NCBI GenBank assembly: GCA_031264145.1
Contig: JAISEK010000050.1
Span: 1 to 34,836 of the forward strand
From: Deltaproteobacteria bacterium
GTDB taxonomy: Bacteria; Desulfobacterota; Desulfarculia; Adiutricales; Adiutricaceae
DNA: 34,836 nt
Direction: 5' to 3'
Shown here: positions 9,580 through 24,964 of the stretch, piece by piece
Layout: each line of letters starts with the position of its first letter
Numbering within the stretch: position 1 is the stretch's first letter
Position numbers and translations under genes: made by a program
Notes under the pieces: model-generated
What the model was told of the DNA's origin: nothing
What the model saw: only the letters and a program-made list of their open reading frames with translations
Databases searched by the model: none

Positions 9580-9771
9580 TTAGATCGAGAGCCCCTGCTC
9601 GTCGGCAAAGGCCTTGGCGTCGAAGGGGGCCTTGCAAGTCTGGCATGACTTCTGGTTACGGAGCTCGGAAACGGTGAAGAATTCCATCTCTGCCCCGCAC
9701 TTGGGGCAAGGCCCGGTAATGACTTTGACTTCCTGCTTCAGACAATCAGGAGTACTCTGAGCTTCAGGCAT
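9580..9771 (-). CDS. Small zinc-ribbon protein, copy 1
   Basis: 63 aa from the ATG at 9771, chosen because GGGGAGG lies six bases upstream; an in-frame ATG seven codons earlier (9792) has no such site. Two CxxC knuckles, Cys22/Cys25 (in GPCPKCGAE) and Cys43/Cys46 (in SCQTCKAPF), form a predicted zinc ribbon. An N-terminal TPDC motif is shared with the second copy at 11606-11800. About three quarters of the last 45 residues are identical between the copies. I do not recognise a named family; a metal-binding regulatory or adaptor protein is plausible but unproven. It has its own terminator and is therefore probably monocistronic. Confidence 0.8.
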   Translation of the reverse strand: MPEAQSTPDCLKQEVKVITGPCPKCGAEMEFFTVSELRNQKSCQTCKAPFDAKAFADEQGLSI

Positions 9772-10153
9772 GAACAACCTCCCCTGTCCCAAACATCCCT
9801 CTCAGGGGGACTATATGGGTCATGGCCCAGTTTGGCGCGGGACCACAAAGGAATCTACGAGGAAAGGGGTCGAAAACAGCGCCAGTCGGGTCGCCAGATG
9901 GACGAAAAGACTCGGCTCTCCAACCTAAAGCCGCTAGGATCCTCCCTAGCGGGACTGGCAAGGCAGATAGGCCAACCCCAAAGCCATAGGAGGCGCTGCG
10001 TTACGGACTTGGGTCTATTATGCCCCCAATGCCGGCCCAAGTCAAGAGTCGAGTCTAGATGTCTAGACGTCTAGATGTATGTAATTTTTCTTGCGCAGGC
10101 AACTTTTTTCGGTTAAACTATACACTGATTTTAATTTTGCCGGGGACAACGCC
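9772..10153. other. Divergent intergenic region between zinc-ribbon copy 1 and the ATPase gene
   Basis: About 380 bp. It should hold promoters for both directions. The notable content is the TCTAGA repeat cluster at 10054-10077 and AT-rich DNA (10078-10140) before the ATPase start. No supported gene. Confidence 0.5.
10054..10077. repeat. Three tandem TCTAGAYG octamers with a 14-bp palindrome
   Basis: TCTAGATG, TCTAGACG and TCTAGATG stand head to tail (10054-10061, 10062-10069, 10070-10077). Positions 10062-10075 form the perfect palindrome TCTAGACGTCTAGA. It lies about 77 bp upstream of the ATPase start, a plausible operator position. Confidence 0.6.
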
Positions 10154-11407
10154 ATGTATATTCGCCGGGCCATCGAGGACACCGTACGGAAAATATCGGA
10201 AACCTTCCCCGTGCTGCTCGTGACGGGCCCCAGGCAAGTGGGGAAAACGACCCTGCTCTCACGCCTCGCCGAGGAAGGCCGGCAGTATGTCACGCTAGAC
10301 GATCCTGGCGCCCGCCTTATGGCCAGAAGGGACCCCGCCCTGTTCATGCAGCGCTACACCCCTCCCGTGATCGTCGACGAGATCCAATACGCCCCCGAGA
10401 TTTTGCCGTATATAAAGATGAGCGTGGACAAGAGCCGGAGGAAAGGCGGTTTCTGGCTCACCGGCTCGCAGCAGTTCCACATGATGAAAAATGTCGGCGA
10501 ATCGCTGGCCGGGCGGGTAGGCATAGCCAATCTATCCGGCTTGTCGCAAAGCGAACTCGCCGGAGTCACATCCGAAAAATTCACGGTTGACCCAGACAGG
10601 CTGCTTTCTCGGTTCAAAAATACACAACAAATTGGATTAAATGATGCATTTAAGCGTATTTTCAAAGGATCAATGCCAGCTATTTATAGCGACAACAATA
10701 TTGAATTGGACATTTTTTATGGTTCATATTTGAACACATACCTGCAACGCGACATCAAGGACTTGACGCAGGTCGCTAATGAGACTTCGTTCATTGACTT
10801 CATGACGGTAGTCGCCGCACGGACAGCCAAGCCTGTGCATTATGAGCAGATCGCCAGTGAGGTTGGGATTTCCTCGCCCACGGCGAAAAAATGGATCTCC
10901 GTCCTGGTCTCATCCGGGATAGTCGCCCTGGTCCAGCCCTATCGCAACAATATTCTCAAAAGGGCAATAAAATCGCCGATAATGCATTTCCTGGATACCG
11001 GACTGTGCTCCTATCTGTTGAAGTGGGCAGACGCCGAGACCCTGGAGCGCGGTTCAGCCTCCGGCGCGTTTTTCGAAAGCCACGTCTTCTCGGAAATCTA
11101 CAAAAGCTATGCCAATGAAGGAAGGATACCGCCAATCTATTACTATCGTGACCGCGACCAAAAAGAGATCGACCTTCTGCTCTATCAAAACGGAACCCTA
11201 TACCCTATCGAGATAAAGAAAACCGCTTCGCCTGGAAAGGAGGCAACCAAGCATTTCAAGGTGCTGGGCCCAGTGGCGGAGCCGGAACGCTTTGGCCCTT
11301 CGGATCAGCCGAAAGTGAAAATAGGGACTGGCGCCGTGGTCTGCATGGCGACTGACCTGAGGCCGATTGACGAAAACAACTGGCAAGTCCCCTTCTGGCT
11401 GGTCTGA
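10154..11407 (+). CDS. ATP-binding protein, AAA_14 + DUF4143 family
   Basis: 417 aa from ATG 10154 (MYIRR); the frame runs 21 codons further upstream without a family match. The N-terminal AAA domain has Walker A GPRQVGKTT (25-33) and Walker B VIVDEIQ (72-78), followed by the TGSQQF sensor block. The middle has a helix-turn-helix-like segment (HYEQIASEVGISSPTAKKWI). The C-terminal DUF4143 part ends with a nuclease-like strand pair around KEIDLLLYQNGTLYPIEIKK, reminiscent of a PD-(D/E)XK fold. The molecular role is not established, and the family is spread sporadically by transfer. Codon use is more AT-rich than the neighbouring core genes, especially at 10600-10740, in keeping with acquisition. 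It is inserted between two paralogous zinc-ribbon genes. Confidence 0.9.
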   Translation: MYIRRAIEDTVRKISETFPVLLVTGPRQVGKTTLLSRLAEEGRQYVTLDDPGARLMARRDPALFMQRYTPPVIVDEIQYAPEILPYIKMSVDKSRRKGGFWLTGSQQFHMMKNVGESLAGRVGIANLSGLSQSELAGVTSEKFTVDPDRLLSRFKNTQQIGLNDAFKRIFKGSMPAIYSDNNIELDIFYGSYLNTYLQRDIKDLTQVANETSFIDFMTVVAARTAKPVHYEQIASEVGISSPTAKKWISVLVSSGIVALVQPYRNNILKRAIKSPIMHFLDTGLCSYLLKWADAETLERGSASGAFFESHVFSEIYKSYANEGRIPPIYYYRDRDQKEIDLLLYQNGTLYPIEIKKTASPGKEATKHFKVLGPVAEPERFGPSDQPKVKIGTGAVVCMATDLRPIDENNWQVPFWLV

Positions 11408-11534
11408 CGCCACTGCCGCCGGCCCGGCCCCGACGGACTGGCGCATGATGGCGCGAGAATAAGGCCTACAACAATAGAGCTCTGACAGAATTGATGGATT
11501 CAGGACTGAAGGCCGCCCGTTCGTCGACATGGCA

Positions 11535-11567
11535 AGGCCCCGGCCACCATGAGATGGGCCGGGGCCT
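11535..11567 (-). terminator. GC-rich hairpin downstream of zinc-ribbon copy 2
   Basis: AGGCCCCGGCC (11535-11545) and its exact complement (11557-11567) form an 11-bp stem with an 11-base loop, about 40 bp past the stop at 11606. No T-run follows on the minus strand, so termination strength is uncertain. Confidence 0.5.
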
Positions 11568-11605
11568 CAGAGGTGCCCGTCCCGGGCGCAAGGCTATATC
11601 CTGGG

Positions 11606-11800
11606 CTAGATGGAAATACCCAGCTTGTCGGCGAAGGCCTTGGGATCGAAGGGAGCCTTGCATCCGTAGCAGTGCTTCTGGTTGCGGAGTTCCGTGACGC
11701 TGAAGAACTCAAGTTCGGCACCGCACTTGGGGCACGGCCCGGTGATGAGCTTGGTGTCCTCCTTCATGCAGTCAGGGGAGCTTTGTTGATCTTCGGACAT
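11606..11800 (-). CDS. Small zinc-ribbon protein, copy 2
   Basis: 64 aa. The ATG at 11800 has an excellent AAGGAGG on the minus strand. It is a paralogue of the 63-aa protein at 9580-9771: Cys23/Cys26 in GPCPKCGAE and Cys44/Cys47 in HCYGCKAPF form the predicted zinc ribbon, and the N-terminal SPDC and C-terminal FADKLGISI correspond to the other copy. No catalytic motif is present and I cannot assign a named family. The two copies share orientation and stand 1.8 kb apart with the ATPase gene between them, suggesting a tandem duplication later separated by the ATPase gene. Confidence 0.8.
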   Translation of the reverse strand: MSEDQQSSPDCMKEDTKLITGPCPKCGAELEFFSVTELRNQKHCYGCKAPFDPKAFADKLGISI

Positions 11801-16930: not shown

Positions 16931-18799
16931 GTGTCGTCCTATCTGGTTCTGGCCCGAAAGTACCGGCCGAGAAAATTCGAGGATCTGATTGGCCAGTCCC
17001 AGGTCAGCCACACCCTCACCAGGGCCCTGGAGGTCGGCCGGCTGGCCCACGCCTACCTCTTCACCGGGCCACGGGGAGTGGGCAAGACCACCGCAGCGAG
17101 GCTCCTGGCCATGGCCCTGAGCTGCCAGGGGACAGGAACCAGGCCCTGCGGGGCCTGCCAGGCCTGCCTGGAGATCCAGAACGGCCAGGCGGTGGACGTG
17201 GTCGAGGTCGACGGGGCCTCCAACCGCGGCATCGACGAAATCAGGAGCCTGAGGGAAACCGTCAAGTACCTGCCGGTCAAGAACCCCAGGAAGGTCTACA
17301 TAATCGACGAGGTCCACGCCCTGACCAAGGACGCCTTCAACGCCCTCCTCAAGACCCTGGAGGAGCCGCCGGCCCACGTGATCTTCATCTTCGCCACCAC
17401 CGAGGCCCACAGGCTCCCGGCCACCATCCTGTCGCGCTGCCAGCGCTACGACTTTAGGCGCATCAAGGTCGACGACATCGTGGGCCGCCTCATCGACGTC
17501 GCCCAGGCGGAGGAAATTTCCGCCGCCAGGGACGCCCTCACCGTCATCGCCCGCCAGGCCGAGGGAGGCCTGAGGGACGCCCTGGGCCTGATGGACCAGG
17601 TCATAGCCTCGAGCGGGGAAATAACCCTGGAGGCCGTGAACATGGCCCTGGGGCTCATCAACCAGGATTTGGTCCTGAAGACCGCGGCCTCGGCCCTCAA
17701 GGGCGATCTCGCCGGGGCCATGGACGTCCTCGACGAGGCCTACGGGCTGGGCTACGACTTCAAGGAACTGGGCCTGCGGACCCTGGAACTGGTCAGGAAC
17801 CTCACGCTCTTCAAGGCCGCCCCGGCGGCCAGCGAGTCCCTGGATCTGACGGACGCCGAGGAGGCCAGGTACAAGGCCCTCACCGCCGACCTGAGCCTGG
17901 GGACCCTCCACCGCCACCTGGAGTCCTGGCTCAGGTTCCAAAACGAGCTGGCCCGCCACACCCAGCCTCGCTGGCTCATGGAGTCCTACCTCATCCGCCT
18001 CTGCCAGATGGCCCCCCTGGCCGACCTGGGGGCTTTGGCCGAAAGGCTCGTGGCCTTCCTGGAGTCCGGGGCCGCCCCCAAGGCCGCCCAACCCGGCCAT
18101 CCGCCCCGATCGCTGGACTCGCCCCTGGCCCTGGCCAGGGATCTGGCACCTGGGCCGGCCCAGGGCAAGGCCATCCCCACGACGGTCAAGCCCATGGGTG
18201 ATGAGCCCCACGCCAGTCCCGGGAGCCAAGGCCAGGCCGTCGCCACGACGGACAAGCCCATGGGTGACGAGCCCCACGCCAGTCCCGGGAGCCAGGGCCA
18301 GGCCGCCGGGATCGAGGCCATCGGGGCCACCTCCCTGGCCCCAGGCACAGGCCAGGCCGCGATCGCAGCCCCCCCTGTACTGCCCCAGGCCGGCGCGGCT
18401 TTGGGGCCGCCCCAGGCCGGCCCCTCGCCGTCCCCCCCGCAGGAGCGGCCAGGCTGGCCACGGGCCGAGGAACCCGGCCCGACCTCCCCGGCCCGGCCAG
18501 GCTGGCCCCAGGCCCCAGGCCCCGTCCTGGGCCCGGCCAGGGCCGACGGGGACACCCACGGCCAAAGATCGGCCCAGAACGGCTCCCAGGCCCCGGACCC
18601 GACGGAGCGCCTGCGGATCATGGAGGAGATGCCGGCGATCCTTGAACTCCACAAAGCCCTGCCCGGCAATTTCATCGGCTATTTCGCCCCGCCCCTGGGC
18701 GAGCTGCCCCAGGATGACGTCCTGGACGACGATGGCAACGTGGGGATCGTGGAGACTGAAACGGCCGTCCCGGACGAGCCCGGGCCTGAAGAGGAATGA
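16931..18799 (+). CDS. dnaX: DNA polymerase III subunit gamma/tau
   Basis: 622 aa with a GTG start at 16931 and AGGGAG just upstream. It is the clamp-loader ATPase of the replisome. The AAA+ core has Walker A GPRGVGKT (46-53), the four zinc ligands Cys65, Cys73, Cys76 and Cys79, Walker B IIDEVHAL, sensor-1 FATTE and the SRC arginine-finger motif. After domain III (about residue 375) comes a long Pro/Ala/Gly linker with a 22-residue tandem repeat (18188-18319), then an acidic end rich in Asp/Glu. I saw no slippery sequence for making a short gamma form. Its usual downstream partner ybaB lies 7 kb away, beyond an inserted island. Confidence 0.97.
   Translation: MSSYLVLARKYRPRKFEDLIGQSQVSHTLTRALEVGRLAHAYLFTGPRGVGKTTAARLLAMALSCQGTGTRPCGACQACLEIQNGQAVDVVEVDGASNRGIDEIRSLRETVKYLPVKNPRKVYIIDEVHALTKDAFNALLKTLEEPPAHVIFIFATTEAHRLPATILSRCQRYDFRRIKVDDIVGRLIDVAQAEEISAARDALTVIARQAEGGLRDALGLMDQVIASSGEITLEAVNMALGLINQDLVLKTAASALKGDLAGAMDVLDEAYGLGYDFKELGLRTLELVRNLTLFKAAPAASESLDLTDAEEARYKALTADLSLGTLHRHLESWLRFQNELARHTQPRWLMESYLIRLCQMAPLADLGALAERLVAFLESGAAPKAAQPGHPPRSLDSPLALARDLAPGPAQGKAIPTTVKPMGDEPHASPGSQGQAVATTDKPMGDEPHASPGSQGQAAGIEAIGATSLAPGTGQAAIAAPPVLPQAGAALGPPQAGPSPSPPQERPGWPRAEEPGPTSPARPGWPQAPGPVLGPARADGDTHGQRSAQNGSQAPDPTERLRIMEEMPAILELHKALPGNFIGYFAPPLGELPQDDVLDDDGNVGIVETETAVPDEPGPEEE
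18188..18304 (+). repeat. Two-copy 66-bp tandem repeat inside dnaX
   Basis: The unit beginning with the KPMGDE codons at 18188 recurs at 18254 with only a few base changes. It encodes KPMGDEPHASPGSQGQA twice, with a period of 22 residues. The repeat is in frame and lies in the disordered linker of tau. Confidence 0.9.
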
Positions 18800-19845: not shown

Positions 19846-20956
19846 ATGGATAATAATAACTATAATGACTTAAGCAGATACACTACAGTAAATGTCAATA
19901 ATTTACTCTTTGACCAATATAATCCACGCCTTCCAGACAACATAGACGGCTCTGACGATGACGCCGTCATGGAATGGATGCTTCGGGAAGGAGAAAGCGT
20001 AGAACTTATAGAATCTATCGGAGAATCTGGTTATTCGACAGCAGAACCGCTGCTTGTTGTAAAATATAGAAAAGATATCTATACTGTTGTCGAAGGAAAT
20101 AGGCGTCTTGTCGCCCTAAAAATTCTAAATAACCCATCTTTAGCACCAATAAATAAAAAAAACAATTAAAAATATTGTTTTAAATTCTCAATTTATACCA
20201 AAAGAAGTTCCTGTAGTAATTTATAAATCAAGAGAAGACGCTTTCGCCTATCTCGGATATAAGCATATTTCTGGAATAAAGACTTGGGGACCATTACAAA
20301 AAGCAAAATACGTTAAGCAACTGCTAGAACATTTCCTTAGTACAGGCTTGGATGAAAATAAAGCGTTTTCAAAAATTTCAAAAAATTCGGCCATAAAACC
20401 TAAAAAAGCCAAAACATCACTCACGGCCTTGGCACTATACGACCTCGCAAAAGAACGAGGCTTCTGGGACATAAAGAATATTGACACGACAAGCATTGAA
20501 TTTTCATTACTCCTTACTGCGGTGACTTATGAAAACATTTACCGATTTCTTGGCTTAAATTCGTCTGATGACCATACGCTTTCAGGATTGCGCGAAGAAC
20601 ACCTGAAAGAACTTTTCCAGTGGGTTTTTTCCAGGGAACTGGGAAACAAATCCCGCGTAGCAGAATCACGTCATTTGTCAACATTTGCCAAAGTTGTCTC
20701 TACGCCAGCAGCCTTAGAGGCATTCCGTGCTGGGATATCTCTTCAGGATGCCGCACTGTACACAGATGAGATTGATGACACTTTTCGCACTCTTGTCAGA
20801 AAGGCATTAAATAGTATGGAACAGACACATCAAATGGTATTAAAAATCACTCCAAATGAGCCCAATCTGGCATTATTACGTTCGTTAAAAGAACTTGTCA
20901 CAACGGCTGGCGTTATGTTAAAAAGCAAAATAGAGAACAACGATAAAGAATTCTAA
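19846..20956 (+). pseudogene. ParB/Srx-domain protein gene, frameshifted
   Basis: The first 107 codons read in one frame and the rest (from about 20162 to the TAA at 20956) in the +1 frame, together about 370 aa. The N-terminal half is a ParB/sulfiredoxin-type domain: a VNNLLFDQYNPRL start, a PLLVVKY strand, and the diagnostic VVEGNRRLVALKIL. The C-terminal half is helical, with no motif I recognise. The frame changes in a run of eight As (20155-20162); seven would restore one continuous protein (KKTIKNIV). The start has AGGTG upstream. Homologues in such loci sit beside methyltransferases and are thought to act in DNA modification or defence rather than chromosome partition. It may be a true pseudogene, a sequencing indel, or corrected by transcript slippage. 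It is very AT-rich and two bases from the next gene. Confidence 0.8.
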
Positions 20957-20958
20957 TA

Positions 20959-21987
20959 ATGACCTGTCTGCATGACATAGAAGTGCCGAATATAAAAAGA
21001 AATGGCGACTATTATCTTTGGGCTGACTATTTGGAGTTGCTCTGCCTGCTGTCTCAAGACAACGAGGTCACCATTAATGTTTTAGATGAATTTATGGGTG
21101 TAGATAAAGGAATGCATATCGATGAAGACATAATTGATGATATTACTTATTTTGACAGCACACAATCAGATTTAACAACAGAAATATTCAATAATTCTGA
21201 TAAAATATCATTAATATACGATGATTTATCACGAATTTTTTATACAAGATTATCTATATTTGGTGATAAATATCCATTTATATGTAATATCAACAATAAA
21301 ACTATTTTTAATAAAAAAGAATATTCTTATGATAACTTATTATATATTTTTCTTCTAATAGCAGGAAATACTCGTTTATTTAAGAAAAATTTTCAGCAAA
21401 ATCTTGCAAATGACTTTGAACAACTTGCGACCGATGCATTAAGAATAATTTTCCCTAAACCTTGGGAATGGAGACACTTTGGAACTGCCAAGCACACAAC
21501 TGTTGACTCTTACTTAGGCACTAAATATTCAAAATTAAAGATATTGAGCGATGATATAAATGCAAAACTAATTGTTGAAGAGTGCAATTTTTCAAAATTT
21601 GACACCAAAGATGCTGGTTTTGACTTTGTCTGCTGGTATCCTTTTGATGGAGATCGGGCATCGCATCTTCCACTAGTTTTTGCGCAAAGCACTTGCACGT
21701 CAAATCTCGACACTTTAATTATCAAACAATATAGTGTATTAGATGATCGTATCAAAAATTATTTCACACAAATTTGCTGTTATAATATTTTATTGACTCC
21801 AGTTTTTTTTCGAGATGCAGCTGGTTATTTCACTAGGCCCCATGAATTGGTTTCTGTCATTATCGATCGATTCCGCATAATGCAATTAATTAGTTATAAT
21901 ATTAAAATGTTTACTAAATTAAATTCTTATTGTGGAATAACAAATTCTTTTCCGTCTATAAATGAAAAATTGTACTATGGCAAATAG
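20959..21987 (+). CDS. Unknown protein, possible PD-(D/E)XK-type restriction endonuclease
   Basis: 342 aa, AT-rich and clearly unlike the core genes. I do not recognise a named family. The C-terminal half has DFEQLATDALRIIFP followed by a block starting DAGFDF (218-223) and leading through WYPFDGDRA to VFAQST, with Gln243. This pattern of a G-x-D strand followed by a (G/A)Q strand resembles endonuclease-like proteins found beside methyltransferases; the assignment is tentative, because a classical E-x-K is not visible. The N-terminal half is acidic, with no motif. It begins two bases after the ParB-like gene and ends 28 bp before the methyltransferase gene, so the three are almost certainly one operon. 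In a restriction-modification reading this would be the cleaving component. Confidence 0.65.
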   Translation: MTCLHDIEVPNIKRNGDYYLWADYLELLCLLSQDNEVTINVLDEFMGVDKGMHIDEDIIDDITYFDSTQSDLTTEIFNNSDKISLIYDDLSRIFYTRLSIFGDKYPFICNINNKTIFNKKEYSYDNLLYIFLLIAGNTRLFKKNFQQNLANDFEQLATDALRIIFPKPWEWRHFGTAKHTTVDSYLGTKYSKLKILSDDINAKLIVEECNFSKFDTKDAGFDFVCWYPFDGDRASHLPLVFAQSTCTSNLDTLIIKQYSVLDDRIKNYFTQICCYNILLTPVFFRDAAGYFTRPHELVSVIIDRFRIMQLISYNIKMFTKLNSYCGITNSFPSINEKLYYGK

Positions 21988-22015
21988 AGAATAATCATAT
22001 CTAAAAATAGTTATT

Positions 22016-22991
22016 ATGCCAAAATTAACAGCAATATCCTTGTTTTCCGGCTGCGGGGGGTTCGACTACGGGGCGAGCCTGTCGGGCATTGACGTTATCT
22101 GGGCGAACGACATTGACCACGTGGCGGCCTCAGCTTATCGAAGCCTCCTGCCCGGCACCGAGTTCGTCATAGCCGACGTTCGGACCATAAAACTCTTTCC
22201 ATTTGCGGATATCCTGATCGGATGCTATCCATGCACCGGCTTCAGTATCGCCGCCCGCCGCAAATGGTAAGGATAGATCCGACAGGGATTTGATGACCAT
22301 CGATGGCAACCACCTATACCTGGAATTCGTGCGCGTCCTGAAAAAAACAAGGCCAAAGTTTTTCGTCGTTGAAAACGTTCGGGGAATGATGAGCGCGAAA
22401 AATGGATGGTTCCTCCATGCCCAAATCAAAGGCTTCCTCGATTCGGGGTATTCAGTGGCCCATGAACTGCTTCATGCCCCAGACTACGGCGTCCCACAAT
22501 CCCGCCAGCGTGTCTTTTTCGTGGGGGTACGAAAGGACATTGCCCGCCATTTTCAATACCATTTTTTGCCCCCCACCCACGGACCCGGCCGCTCCCTCCC
22601 TTATGTCAGCCAGCAACAGGCCATCGGGGACTTGCCATGGTGGCCCATGGACGAGTTTCTGGACAAAGCCTTCCATGGCCACTATCTCACCAGAAACAGG
22701 AAACGCCCATGGACGGAGCCAAGCTACACCATAGTAGCCAACGCATCACACGTCCCCCTGCACCCCGCTGGCGAGCAAATGGCCTTCATAGAGAAGGACA
22801 GGTGGGCCCTACAGGGTGATTTCAATCGCCGATTGTCGTGGCGGGAATGTGCACGGCTGCAGGGCTTTCCGGATGACATGCGCCCAGTGGGCAGGCTGGA
22901 AGACAAATACAGAATCATCGGCAATGCGGTCCCACCTGCCTTCGGCAGGGCGTTGATTGCACCTATTGCTGGGGCATGCGGCGGAGGTTGA
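22016..22991 (+). pseudogene. C5 cytosine DNA methyltransferase gene, frameshifted
   Basis: A Dcm-type enzyme of about 325 aa split by one +1 frameshift. Frame one (22016-22270) holds motif I (ISLFSGCGGFDYG) and the catalytic motif IV in the form GCYPCTGFS, with Thr after the Pro-Cys instead of the usual Gln. The second frame holds motif VI (FFVVENVRG), motif VIII (QSRQRVFFVG), motif IX (SWRECARLQGFPD) and motif X (GNAVPPAFGRAL). Frames join near 22262-22271, around the AAATGGTAAGG sequence. All key motifs are otherwise present, so the damage looks recent or is a sequencing error. GC content is higher than in the two genes upstream although the three are closely spaced, which hints at a mosaic origin. 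It probably protected host DNA from the partner nuclease. Confidence 0.88.
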
Positions 22992-23413: not shown

Positions 23414-24964
23414 ATGTCACGCAAACCTGTCGCCGATAGTTTCATATACTTCCAAGAGCGGGCCAACGGCCGCAAGTACGCTAGATTCTGCCCCTCAGAT
23501 CGCAAGCATGGAGGGAAGGATATATATCTCGGCGTGGTCATCGACGAAGTCAAAGGGGTATTCCACAACCGAAACAGCGGCGGATATTTCCGATTCACCA
23601 TCGAGGCGGGAAGACAGGAGCTCACCGCTGACGAAAGGTCGCGCTACGGAGTCGCCGAGAAGGGCCATGGCCGGGATACGCCCAAAATGCCATTGACCCT
23701 GAACTTCGGGGACGCCTGGTTTCTTGACCACATTGTCGAAGTCTCCGGCCTCAGGGGGGTGCTTGGGAACGTCTGCCCTGGTGACCTGGACACGCTGCTG
23801 GCCCTCATAGCCTTCCGGCTCCTCGAAACAGGGGCCGACTGCCACGCTGGAAGATGGCTTGAGTCGTCATATGCCCGCTACCTTTACCCCAAAGCCCAGA
23901 TCGGGCCGCAGCGGATCAGCGAGTTTCTTGTCCGGCTAGGCGCCGAGGAGACCCAAAGGTCCTTCTTCGGCGCATACCTGGCGTACCTCAGGAAGACGTC
24001 GGGACTTGGCGAGAACGTGCTGATAGACTATGCCGGGCTCCCGGGCGACATCCACTTTGAACGCTCAAAGGCATGTGCCCACGACGGGGTCTCCAGGAAG
24101 GCGCGGTTGTTCTGCGTGGTGGAAAGGGGAACCGGCCTGCCGGTATATTTTCGCTATGTGGCTGGAAGGGCCGTGGACGCCTCCACGCTGCTGGCGACGG
24201 TAAACGGGCTTAAGGCGCAAGGGATCGACGTGGAGCATGGGATCCTGGACGCAGGATACTGCTCCCAGGCGAACGTCAAGATGTTGAAGAAGGACGACAT
24301 TTCTTTCCTAACGGGACTGCCATGCGGCAGATTCGCCAATGATTTGATCGCCAGGCACGGCGGAGATCTGCTATCCCACGAATATGAGCAGGAACATGGT
24401 GACCGCGTTCTCCGCGTAAAACGCGTCCCAGCCCGCATATTCGGTCTTGATTTGCAAGCATACATTTGCCTGGACGTAGACTTGATGCGTGATGAGCAGC
24501 AAAGAAGCCTCCAACGAAGCATAAGCGACTCGAAGAAGAAAACTAGAAAAGACACAACTGAGGATGGTCCAAAACGACTTGGCTACTTCGTGCTGCTGTC
24601 CTCCAAAGTCCTCAGCGAAAGGGAAGTGCTTCCTTTGCGTTATATGCGCCAGACAGTTGGGCGGATTTTCGACCTGGCGAAAAATGACGCTGGCCAGGTA
24701 CCGCCTATGGCTCGCGATGACGAGACGCTCCGAGGGCATTTGATGCTGTGCTTCATGTCAGCTGTCGCGCTCATGACCGTCAAACGCCTCCTCGACATGC
24801 GCAAGAGGCTAAAGGACATGGACGCTAAAATGGCCCTCAGAGACATGAGTTCCATAAAATGTGGCATTTTTGATAAGATATTAGTCATGACAGAAGCCAA
24901 TAAATATGCCAATACGATCATTAAAGAACTAAAACTAGAAATGCCCGGTGTAGTGAATATATAG
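23414..24964 (+). mobile_element. IS1634/IS4-type DDE transposase with altered catalytic Glu
   Basis: 516 aa, full length for an IS1634-like (IS4 superfamily) transposase, in GC-rich codons unlike the AT-rich genes to its left. The first catalytic Asp is D205 (VLIDYAGLPG) and the second D279 (GILDAGYCSQ). The third block, normally Y..RQ.(V/I)E..F...KND, reads YMRQTVGRIFDLAKND, so the expected Glu is Gly416 (GGG codon at 24659-24661; GAG would be one base away). The C-terminal RGHLMLCFMSAVALM segment is typical. I could not define terminal inverted repeats or a target-site duplication; ATAGGTAACAT (near 23379) and ATAGGTTACAT (near 24960) are similar short direct sequences on either side. The element may be catalytically dead. 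Confidence 0.85.

Follow-up and report, generated by a model that had tools for sequence, protein, structure and literature searches.

A ParB-like protein paired with a predicted PD-(D/E)XK nuclease as a probable restriction partner of interchangeable DNA modification genes

Introduction

Does a C5 methyltransferase gene that lies behind two low-GC genes of a Deltaproteobacteria bacterium stand alone, or do the three genes together form a restriction system? The genes are located in contig JAISEK010000050.1, positions 1 to 34,836 of which were analysed and are here called the window. An earlier note, made from the DNA alone, had read them as a candidate defence or restriction-modification (R-M) module comprising a ParB-like protein (P), an unrecognised and possibly nuclease-like protein of 342 residues (X), and a C5 methyltransferase (M). 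It had also set two tests beforehand: the trio should be conserved elsewhere, and X should not fold as something unrelated to nucleases. The analysis described below supports the module reading with two amendments. The copy in the window has probably been damaged or is no longer functional, and the P–X pair is found beside at least four kinds of modification partner, of which M is only one.

Results

The trio in the window

P (19846–20956), X (20959–21987), and M (22016–22991) lie in this order on the forward strand, with gaps of 2 bp (P/X) and 28 bp (X/M), in agreement with the arrangement first described. The low GC content attributed to the first two genes was also confirmed: the values are 0.38 for P and 0.305 for X versus 0.56 for M and 0.59 for the whole window. 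The trio is flanked by dnaX (16931–18799) on one side and a DDE transposase gene (23414–24964) on the other. The transposase gene lies a short way after M and fits a decaying mobile segment. At a distance upstream, two genes of lowered GC content encode an AAA-ATPase_like/PDDEXK_9 protein (92–1729) and an AAA_14/DUF4143 protein (10091–11407), typical accessory ATPases.

The reading frames were compared with those of an intact relative (L039) by tblastn. Residues 15–106 of the L039 P protein matched frame 1 of the window and residues 120–337 matched frame 2. The 5' part of P (19846–20169) encodes the ParB N-terminal (CTPase-fold) domain and the VVEGNRRL phosphate-motif region and ends early by frameshift; the 3' part (20170–20956), in the other frame, encodes the KHISGIKTW motif, a predicted helix-turn-helix (HTH), and the C-terminal helices. 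A profile match to P in the genome itself (20141–20938) contains internal stops. M is divided in the same manner. Its 5' part (22016–22270; PF00145, 1e-17) corresponds to residues 3–83 of L039 M with 77% identity and carries the SAM and catalytic motifs (GCYPCTGFS) up to the frameshift, and its 3' part (22269–22991; PF00145, 6.5e-38) corresponds to residues 84–319 with 69% identity and carries motifs IV–X and a small target recognition region. The homology to the intact relative runs on nearly without gaps across two frames in each gene, indicating that P and M are both frameshifted, and X is the sole intact member of the trio in this genome. Because of the two frameshifts, as read in an assembly where an error is possible, the system in the window is probably inactive. 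Among the 198 contigs of the window genome, neither P nor X was found a second time. The loss of P and M with X left whole fits a joint decay of the module, in this one case.

P is predicted to adopt the ParB-CTPase fold

In a Foldseek search, the AF2 model of P from Candidatus Adiutrix sp. (pLDDT 86.7) matched a ParB nucleotide complex (7bm8, 4e-5), Noc (6e-5), and Spo0J, which upholds the ParB-like assignment through an intact homolog. Profile matches of P were weak, to ParB_N and to GmrSD_N (6 of 22 P members); the N-terminus of the window P matched the PADLOC model PD-Lambda-5_A with an E value of 1.8e-20. The EGNRR motif is invariant in the P family and the RHxTGxxxW motif is nearly so, and both would sit at the ParB nucleotide-binding site. 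The model and the motifs point to a ParB-CTPase fold with a phosphate-binding arginine motif, and P may bind CTP or another NTP. According to a survey of this fold (PMC12704722), its members bind CTP, ATP, or GTP, and sequence and AF3 are unreliable predictors of the nucleotide choice.

X is predicted to be a PD-(D/E)XK nuclease

No usable match of X to a sequence family was found in Pfam, PADLOC, NCBIfam, or the PDB. The AF2 model of the window X (pLDDT 82.5, pTM 0.85) shows the order helix (E154), strand, strand (D222), strand (Q243), helix (K256), and strand. The only credible Foldseek matches in the PDB were chains of the restriction endonuclease MspJI, the top three of which had probabilities of 0.98–1.00 and modest E values of 0.008–0.02. 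The G-x-D...(A)Q block pointed out earlier is present as D218-A-G220-F-D222 ... A-Q243. In an alignment of 26 homologs, E154, D222, and K256 are invariant, and Q243 is conserved in 24, the remaining two being off by one column. Glu154 (21418–21420), on the first catalytic helix (residues 143–164), is a candidate metal ligand, and Asp222 (21622–21624), in a GDxGxDxVAW motif at the start of the strand 223–226, is a candidate catalytic aspartate. Gln243 (21685–21687) occupies the (D/E/Q) position of a D-x20-Q motif, the spacing of which we take to be the same as in MspJI. Lys256 (21724–21726), in the helix 250–258, is a candidate catalytic lysine. The canonical position of this lysine is empty in the main X subfamily. 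In a sister subfamily partnered with D12 methylases, Q-C-K comes right after the same D…VAW, giving the textbook D…QxK order, and this comparison suggests that the lysine of the main subfamily has most likely moved into the following helix. With the core α/β fold and the four conserved residues, X is predicted to be a stand-alone PD-(D/E)XK nuclease that would cleave DNA, and in the test of fold the result came down on the side of a nuclease.

M resembles M.HaeIII

The best PDB match of an intact M homolog was M.HaeIII (3e-43, full length), consistent with the PF00145 matches and with the original assignment of the third gene as a C5 methyltransferase. The recognition region of the window M reads LTRNRKRPW..SYTIVANASHVPLHP, and one such stretch is common to all C5 partners of P–X. 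We presume that this stretch is HaeIII-like, and a GGCC-like site is predicted as the target of M.

Occurrence of the trio elsewhere

An intact trio was found in a same-family relative, Candidatus Adiutrix sp. (G005, on the same contig as L039), where it adjoins HmaB/HmaC-like and PtuA/PtuB-like genes of the Hma and Septu systems (L011). When bacterial genomes were scanned using only X as the query, at least 24 loci were detected, and the phyla among the matches listed were Pseudomonadota, Acidobacteriota, Armatimonadota, Bacteroidota, and Campylobacterota. X occurred in about 1% of the genomes or less in three group samples (3/399, 2/369, and 5/296), each of which includes its centre genome, picked for having X. 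P–X is also encoded on a Persicobacter plasmid (L010), and it faces a C5 methylase gene in the phages Wphi, P2 isolate OU784549, 12474II, and Pseudomonas D14A. Scans of viral contigs with a single-protein or three-sequence query yielded zero or one locus, and an alignment of nine sequences proved too heterogeneous to serve as a basis for pattern searches. In all, the arrangement was found again in dozens of independent loci and is therefore far beyond chance. The trio thus passed the test of conservation, being present in the relative, in P2-family phages, and in other phyla.

Among 5,426 E. coli genomes, M was detected in 139 (~2.6%), a number that equals the sum of the genomes with a Wphi-type P–X (103) and those with a 12474-type P–X (36); the 139 genomes represent a few lineages, not 139 separate events. 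In E. coli, the trio occupies the interval bounded by the portal gene and gene A, which serves replication; this interval has been described as an anti-phage hotspot of P2-family phages (Rousset 2022, PMC9122126). Together with the Hma and Septu genes of the relative, this position provides the company of defence genes that the earlier note had proposed to look for. In the E. coli genomes NZ_CP172159 and NZ_CP196168, copies of IS1 and IS5 lie within the P–X part and M matches in full; it is possible that the restriction side alone was lost there.

P–X is linked to various modification genes

P is located immediately 5' of X on the same strand in all 26 measured loci, with a spacing of −17 to +11 bp, and it accompanies X in every intact locus. 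Flanks that could be used were available for 35 non-redundant loci, and 33 of these have a modification gene within ~4 kb of P–X: a C5 methylase in 24, a D12 adenine methylase in five (L059, L060, L062, L064, and L065), an N6/N4 methylase in one (L067), and a dnd set in three. The dnd sets consist of dndB, C, and D above the NCBIfam cut-offs with dndE slightly below (L035), dndB and C (L040), and dndC with a dndD-like gene (L041). A random gene should only rarely adjoin a modification gene, in less than a few per cent of cases by our own estimate. The homolog search used X alone, and the choice of partners is therefore no artefact of the search. In most loci, including those of the compact P2-like phages, M is the immediate neighbour of P–X and the sole modification gene seen beside it; exceptions in spacing among the C5 partners are L013, with one intervening gene, and L024, at 3 kb. 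No modification gene was seen near P–X at L010 (Persicobacter) or L016 (a gut phage contig).

Other restriction genes adjoin P–X in several loci, namely genes for DndH (L035), an REase-like protein (L013), a NotI-like enzyme (L064), and type I-like proteins (L060), and an accessory role of P–X is thus possible. In Salinibius (L035, 3–12883), DndH, an HNH-like gene, P–X, and convergent dndEDCB are found at one locus, so that P–X lies inside the dnd locus. The NotI-like restriction endonuclease gene of L064 is placed between the D12 methylase gene and P–X (9654–11744), and P–X with its D12 methylase at L060 (2557–14468) is seemingly nested among type I R-M-like genes. The human-gut phage contig MT835579 (L016, 3833–10588) carries two divergent P–X pairs face to face and a gene for a Z1-domain ATPase. 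At L062 (8420–9907), a second, longer P-like protein of 495 residues is encoded convergently to P–X beside an HNH_2 gene; it is possibly a relative of the PD-Lambda-5_A type.

In 21 complete trios, the correlation of pairwise identities was 0.91 between P and X, 0.41 between P and M, and 0.35 between X and M; these values are uncorrected for shared ancestry. Between Wphi and 12474II, M is 98% identical, while P and X are only 32% and 20% identical, respectively. Likewise, the window and Adiutrix share ~70% identity in M and 31% in X. These cases of a conserved M with a divergent P–X, together with the GC contrast in the window, suggest that P–X pairs appear to have been swapped against a conserved methylase.

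Discussion

The recurrence of P–X beside four chemically different kinds of marking enzyme makes the pair look like an undescribed restriction partner of methylases regarded as standing alone. We consider it likely that P–X is a two-protein restriction module, that M is its interchangeable modification partner, and that self DNA is spared when marked. In the mechanism we propose, P, with its ParB-CTPase fold and HTH, would bind, scan, or clamp DNA and check it for self marks, possibly reading them through a nucleotide-gated conformational switch. On unmarked invader DNA, P would recruit or activate X, which would then cut. Marks placed by the neighbouring enzyme would block X: 5mC at a GGCC-like site in the case of M, and adenine methylation or phosphorothioation at other loci. 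We prefer an inhibiting mark for two reasons: P–X stays the same as the chemistry of the mark changes, and at L037, a decayed locus, M has been kept with X truncated and P absent, as would be expected if only P–X were dangerous. The latter is a single case. A bolder proposal, which we put forward tentatively, is that P–X is a mark-agnostic module, in which a ParB-type NTP-switched clamp licenses a separate nuclease and chemically unrelated marks (5mC, adenine or N4 methylation, or phosphorothioate) confer protection, with the pairs moving from one modification system to another, and that it constitutes a restriction type of its own.

Other explanations can account for parts of these observations. 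P–X might be a separate defence unit (a back-up or abortive nuclease, or a type IV enzyme directed at foreign marks) that happens to move together with modification and restriction genes in defence islands. The complete systems alongside some of the pairs (dndBCDE with dndH at L035, type I-like genes at L060, the NotI-like gene at L064, and Hma and Septu at L011) could be explained in this manner, as could the two loci with no modification gene seen near P–X and the evolution of M apart from P–X. We regard this as unlikely, however, since M is mostly the immediate and only modification gene even where phage genomes are compact, and the counts in E. coli are equal (139 M versus 103 plus 36 P–X). 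Could the mark instead license the attack, with P–X being switched on by sensing self modification and the modification gene being needed for activity? Modification genes stand beside P–X nearly always, and MspJI, the best fold match of X, is to our understanding a 5mC-dependent nuclease. SspE, which also has a ParB-superfamily NTPase domain, is reported to act through a licensing mark (PMC11662687; PMC10952713). However, M is a full methylase that should mark most of its sites, so that a nuclease activated by the mark would need another route to spare self DNA, and a single mark-binding pocket is difficult to reconcile with partners of such variable chemistry. Together with the remains at L037, these points make a licensing mark quite unlikely.

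A further explanation, in which P is a ParB serving partition or regulation, a mobile element carries M as an orphan or anti-restriction methylase, and X is unrelated or a structural partner, is very improbable. In its favour, P has a ParB fold, the trio resides in phages and prophages and on transferred DNA of low GC content, and a putative plasmid-partitioning system has been mentioned in a fourth of P2-like phages (Rousset 2022, PMC9122126). Against these points, X goes with P everywhere and has nuclease residues, and the trio is too rare in E. coli to be that system, since its frequency (139 of 5,426 genomes) is much lower than one in four P2-like loci. An assignment to ParABS was likewise rejected: no adjacent ParA is found among the annotated neighbours of P at L010, L014, L015, L017, and L066.

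If the restriction module is as we propose, C5 methylases now annotated as "orphan", among them those carried by P2-like prophages of E. coli, would belong to complete restriction systems, the nuclease of which is hidden in current annotation as a "hypothetical protein" and the sensor as a partition-like ParB. The ParB-CTPase switch would then extend to a stand-alone PD-(D/E)XK nuclease. The findings also raise the question of how a single restriction pair could respect marks as unlike as 5mC and phosphorothioate.

Comparison with known systems

X shares with MspJI the fold of the catalytic domain and presumably the D-x20-Q spacing. MspJI is a single 5mC-dependent enzyme, whereas X is without the MspJI recognition domain and is paired with a ParB-like protein.

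The closest functional parallels are found among nucleases governed by a ParB-superfamily domain. DndI of the IscS-DndBCDE-DndI system combines a ParB-superfamily NTPase domain with a nuclease by which self DNA carrying phosphorothioate is spared (PMC11662687), and three P–X loci adjoin dnd genes. DndI is, however, a single protein, in which a DUF262 DGQQR motif is combined with a nuclease of the HNH type (PMC11662687). In P–X, the P protein is separate and carries EGNRR and an HTH, the nuclease is predicted to be of the PD-(D/E)XK type, and most partners are methylases. Experiments on DndI and SspE provide precedents for the control of a nuclease by a DNA mark through such an NTPase, with opposite logic (PMC11662687), and SspE and GmrSD serve as functional precedents (PMC10952713). 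GmrSD, BrxU, and SspE likewise combine an NTP sensor of the ParB/Srx fold with a nuclease, and GmrS and GmrD can occur as two proteins. They differ in belonging to another fold family, in having a DUF1524/HNH nuclease, and in responding to modified cytosines or PT marks. With EGNRR in P and a predicted PD-(D/E)XK nuclease in X, P–X was not placed in the GmrSD/DndI/SspE group, which is defined by DUF262 DGQQR and HNH DUF1524.

Component A of PD-Lambda-5 (PMC9519451), a methylase-linked prophage defence, has a ParB-like N-terminus resembling P (E values of about 1e-20 to 1e-25), but the good match is confined mainly to the first ~100–190 residues of A. Component B had no PADLOC match among the trio proteins, and a filing as PD-Lambda-5 was ruled out by the mismatch of the partner genes. 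Druantia was also rejected: the sole Dru match is that of M (DruM), and P and X match no Dru model. P corresponds in fold to the orphan, mobile-element-borne proteins described in the passages of the ParB-CTPase-fold survey mentioned above (PMC12704722). Those passages report domain fusions (HNH, methylase, and DUFs) and contain no mention of a P–X operon or a PD-(D/E)XK partner. We found no prior description of P–X in the literature, in which subscription papers and preprints were thinly covered, so that this absence is weak evidence of novelty.

In the broad sense of a nuclease gene linked to a modification gene, P–X and its partners at 33 of the 35 loci are candidate restriction-modification loci. 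With type II R-M systems that have an M.HaeIII-like methylase, the trio shares a C5 methylase whose recognition region is of the HaeIII type and which is encoded beside a putative nuclease gene. In type II systems, neither a third protein nor a nucleotide is needed by the nuclease and the methylase; the trio has an extra ParB-like gene, which goes with X at all intact loci and may be obligate, and a nuclease that elsewhere pairs with marks of other chemistries.
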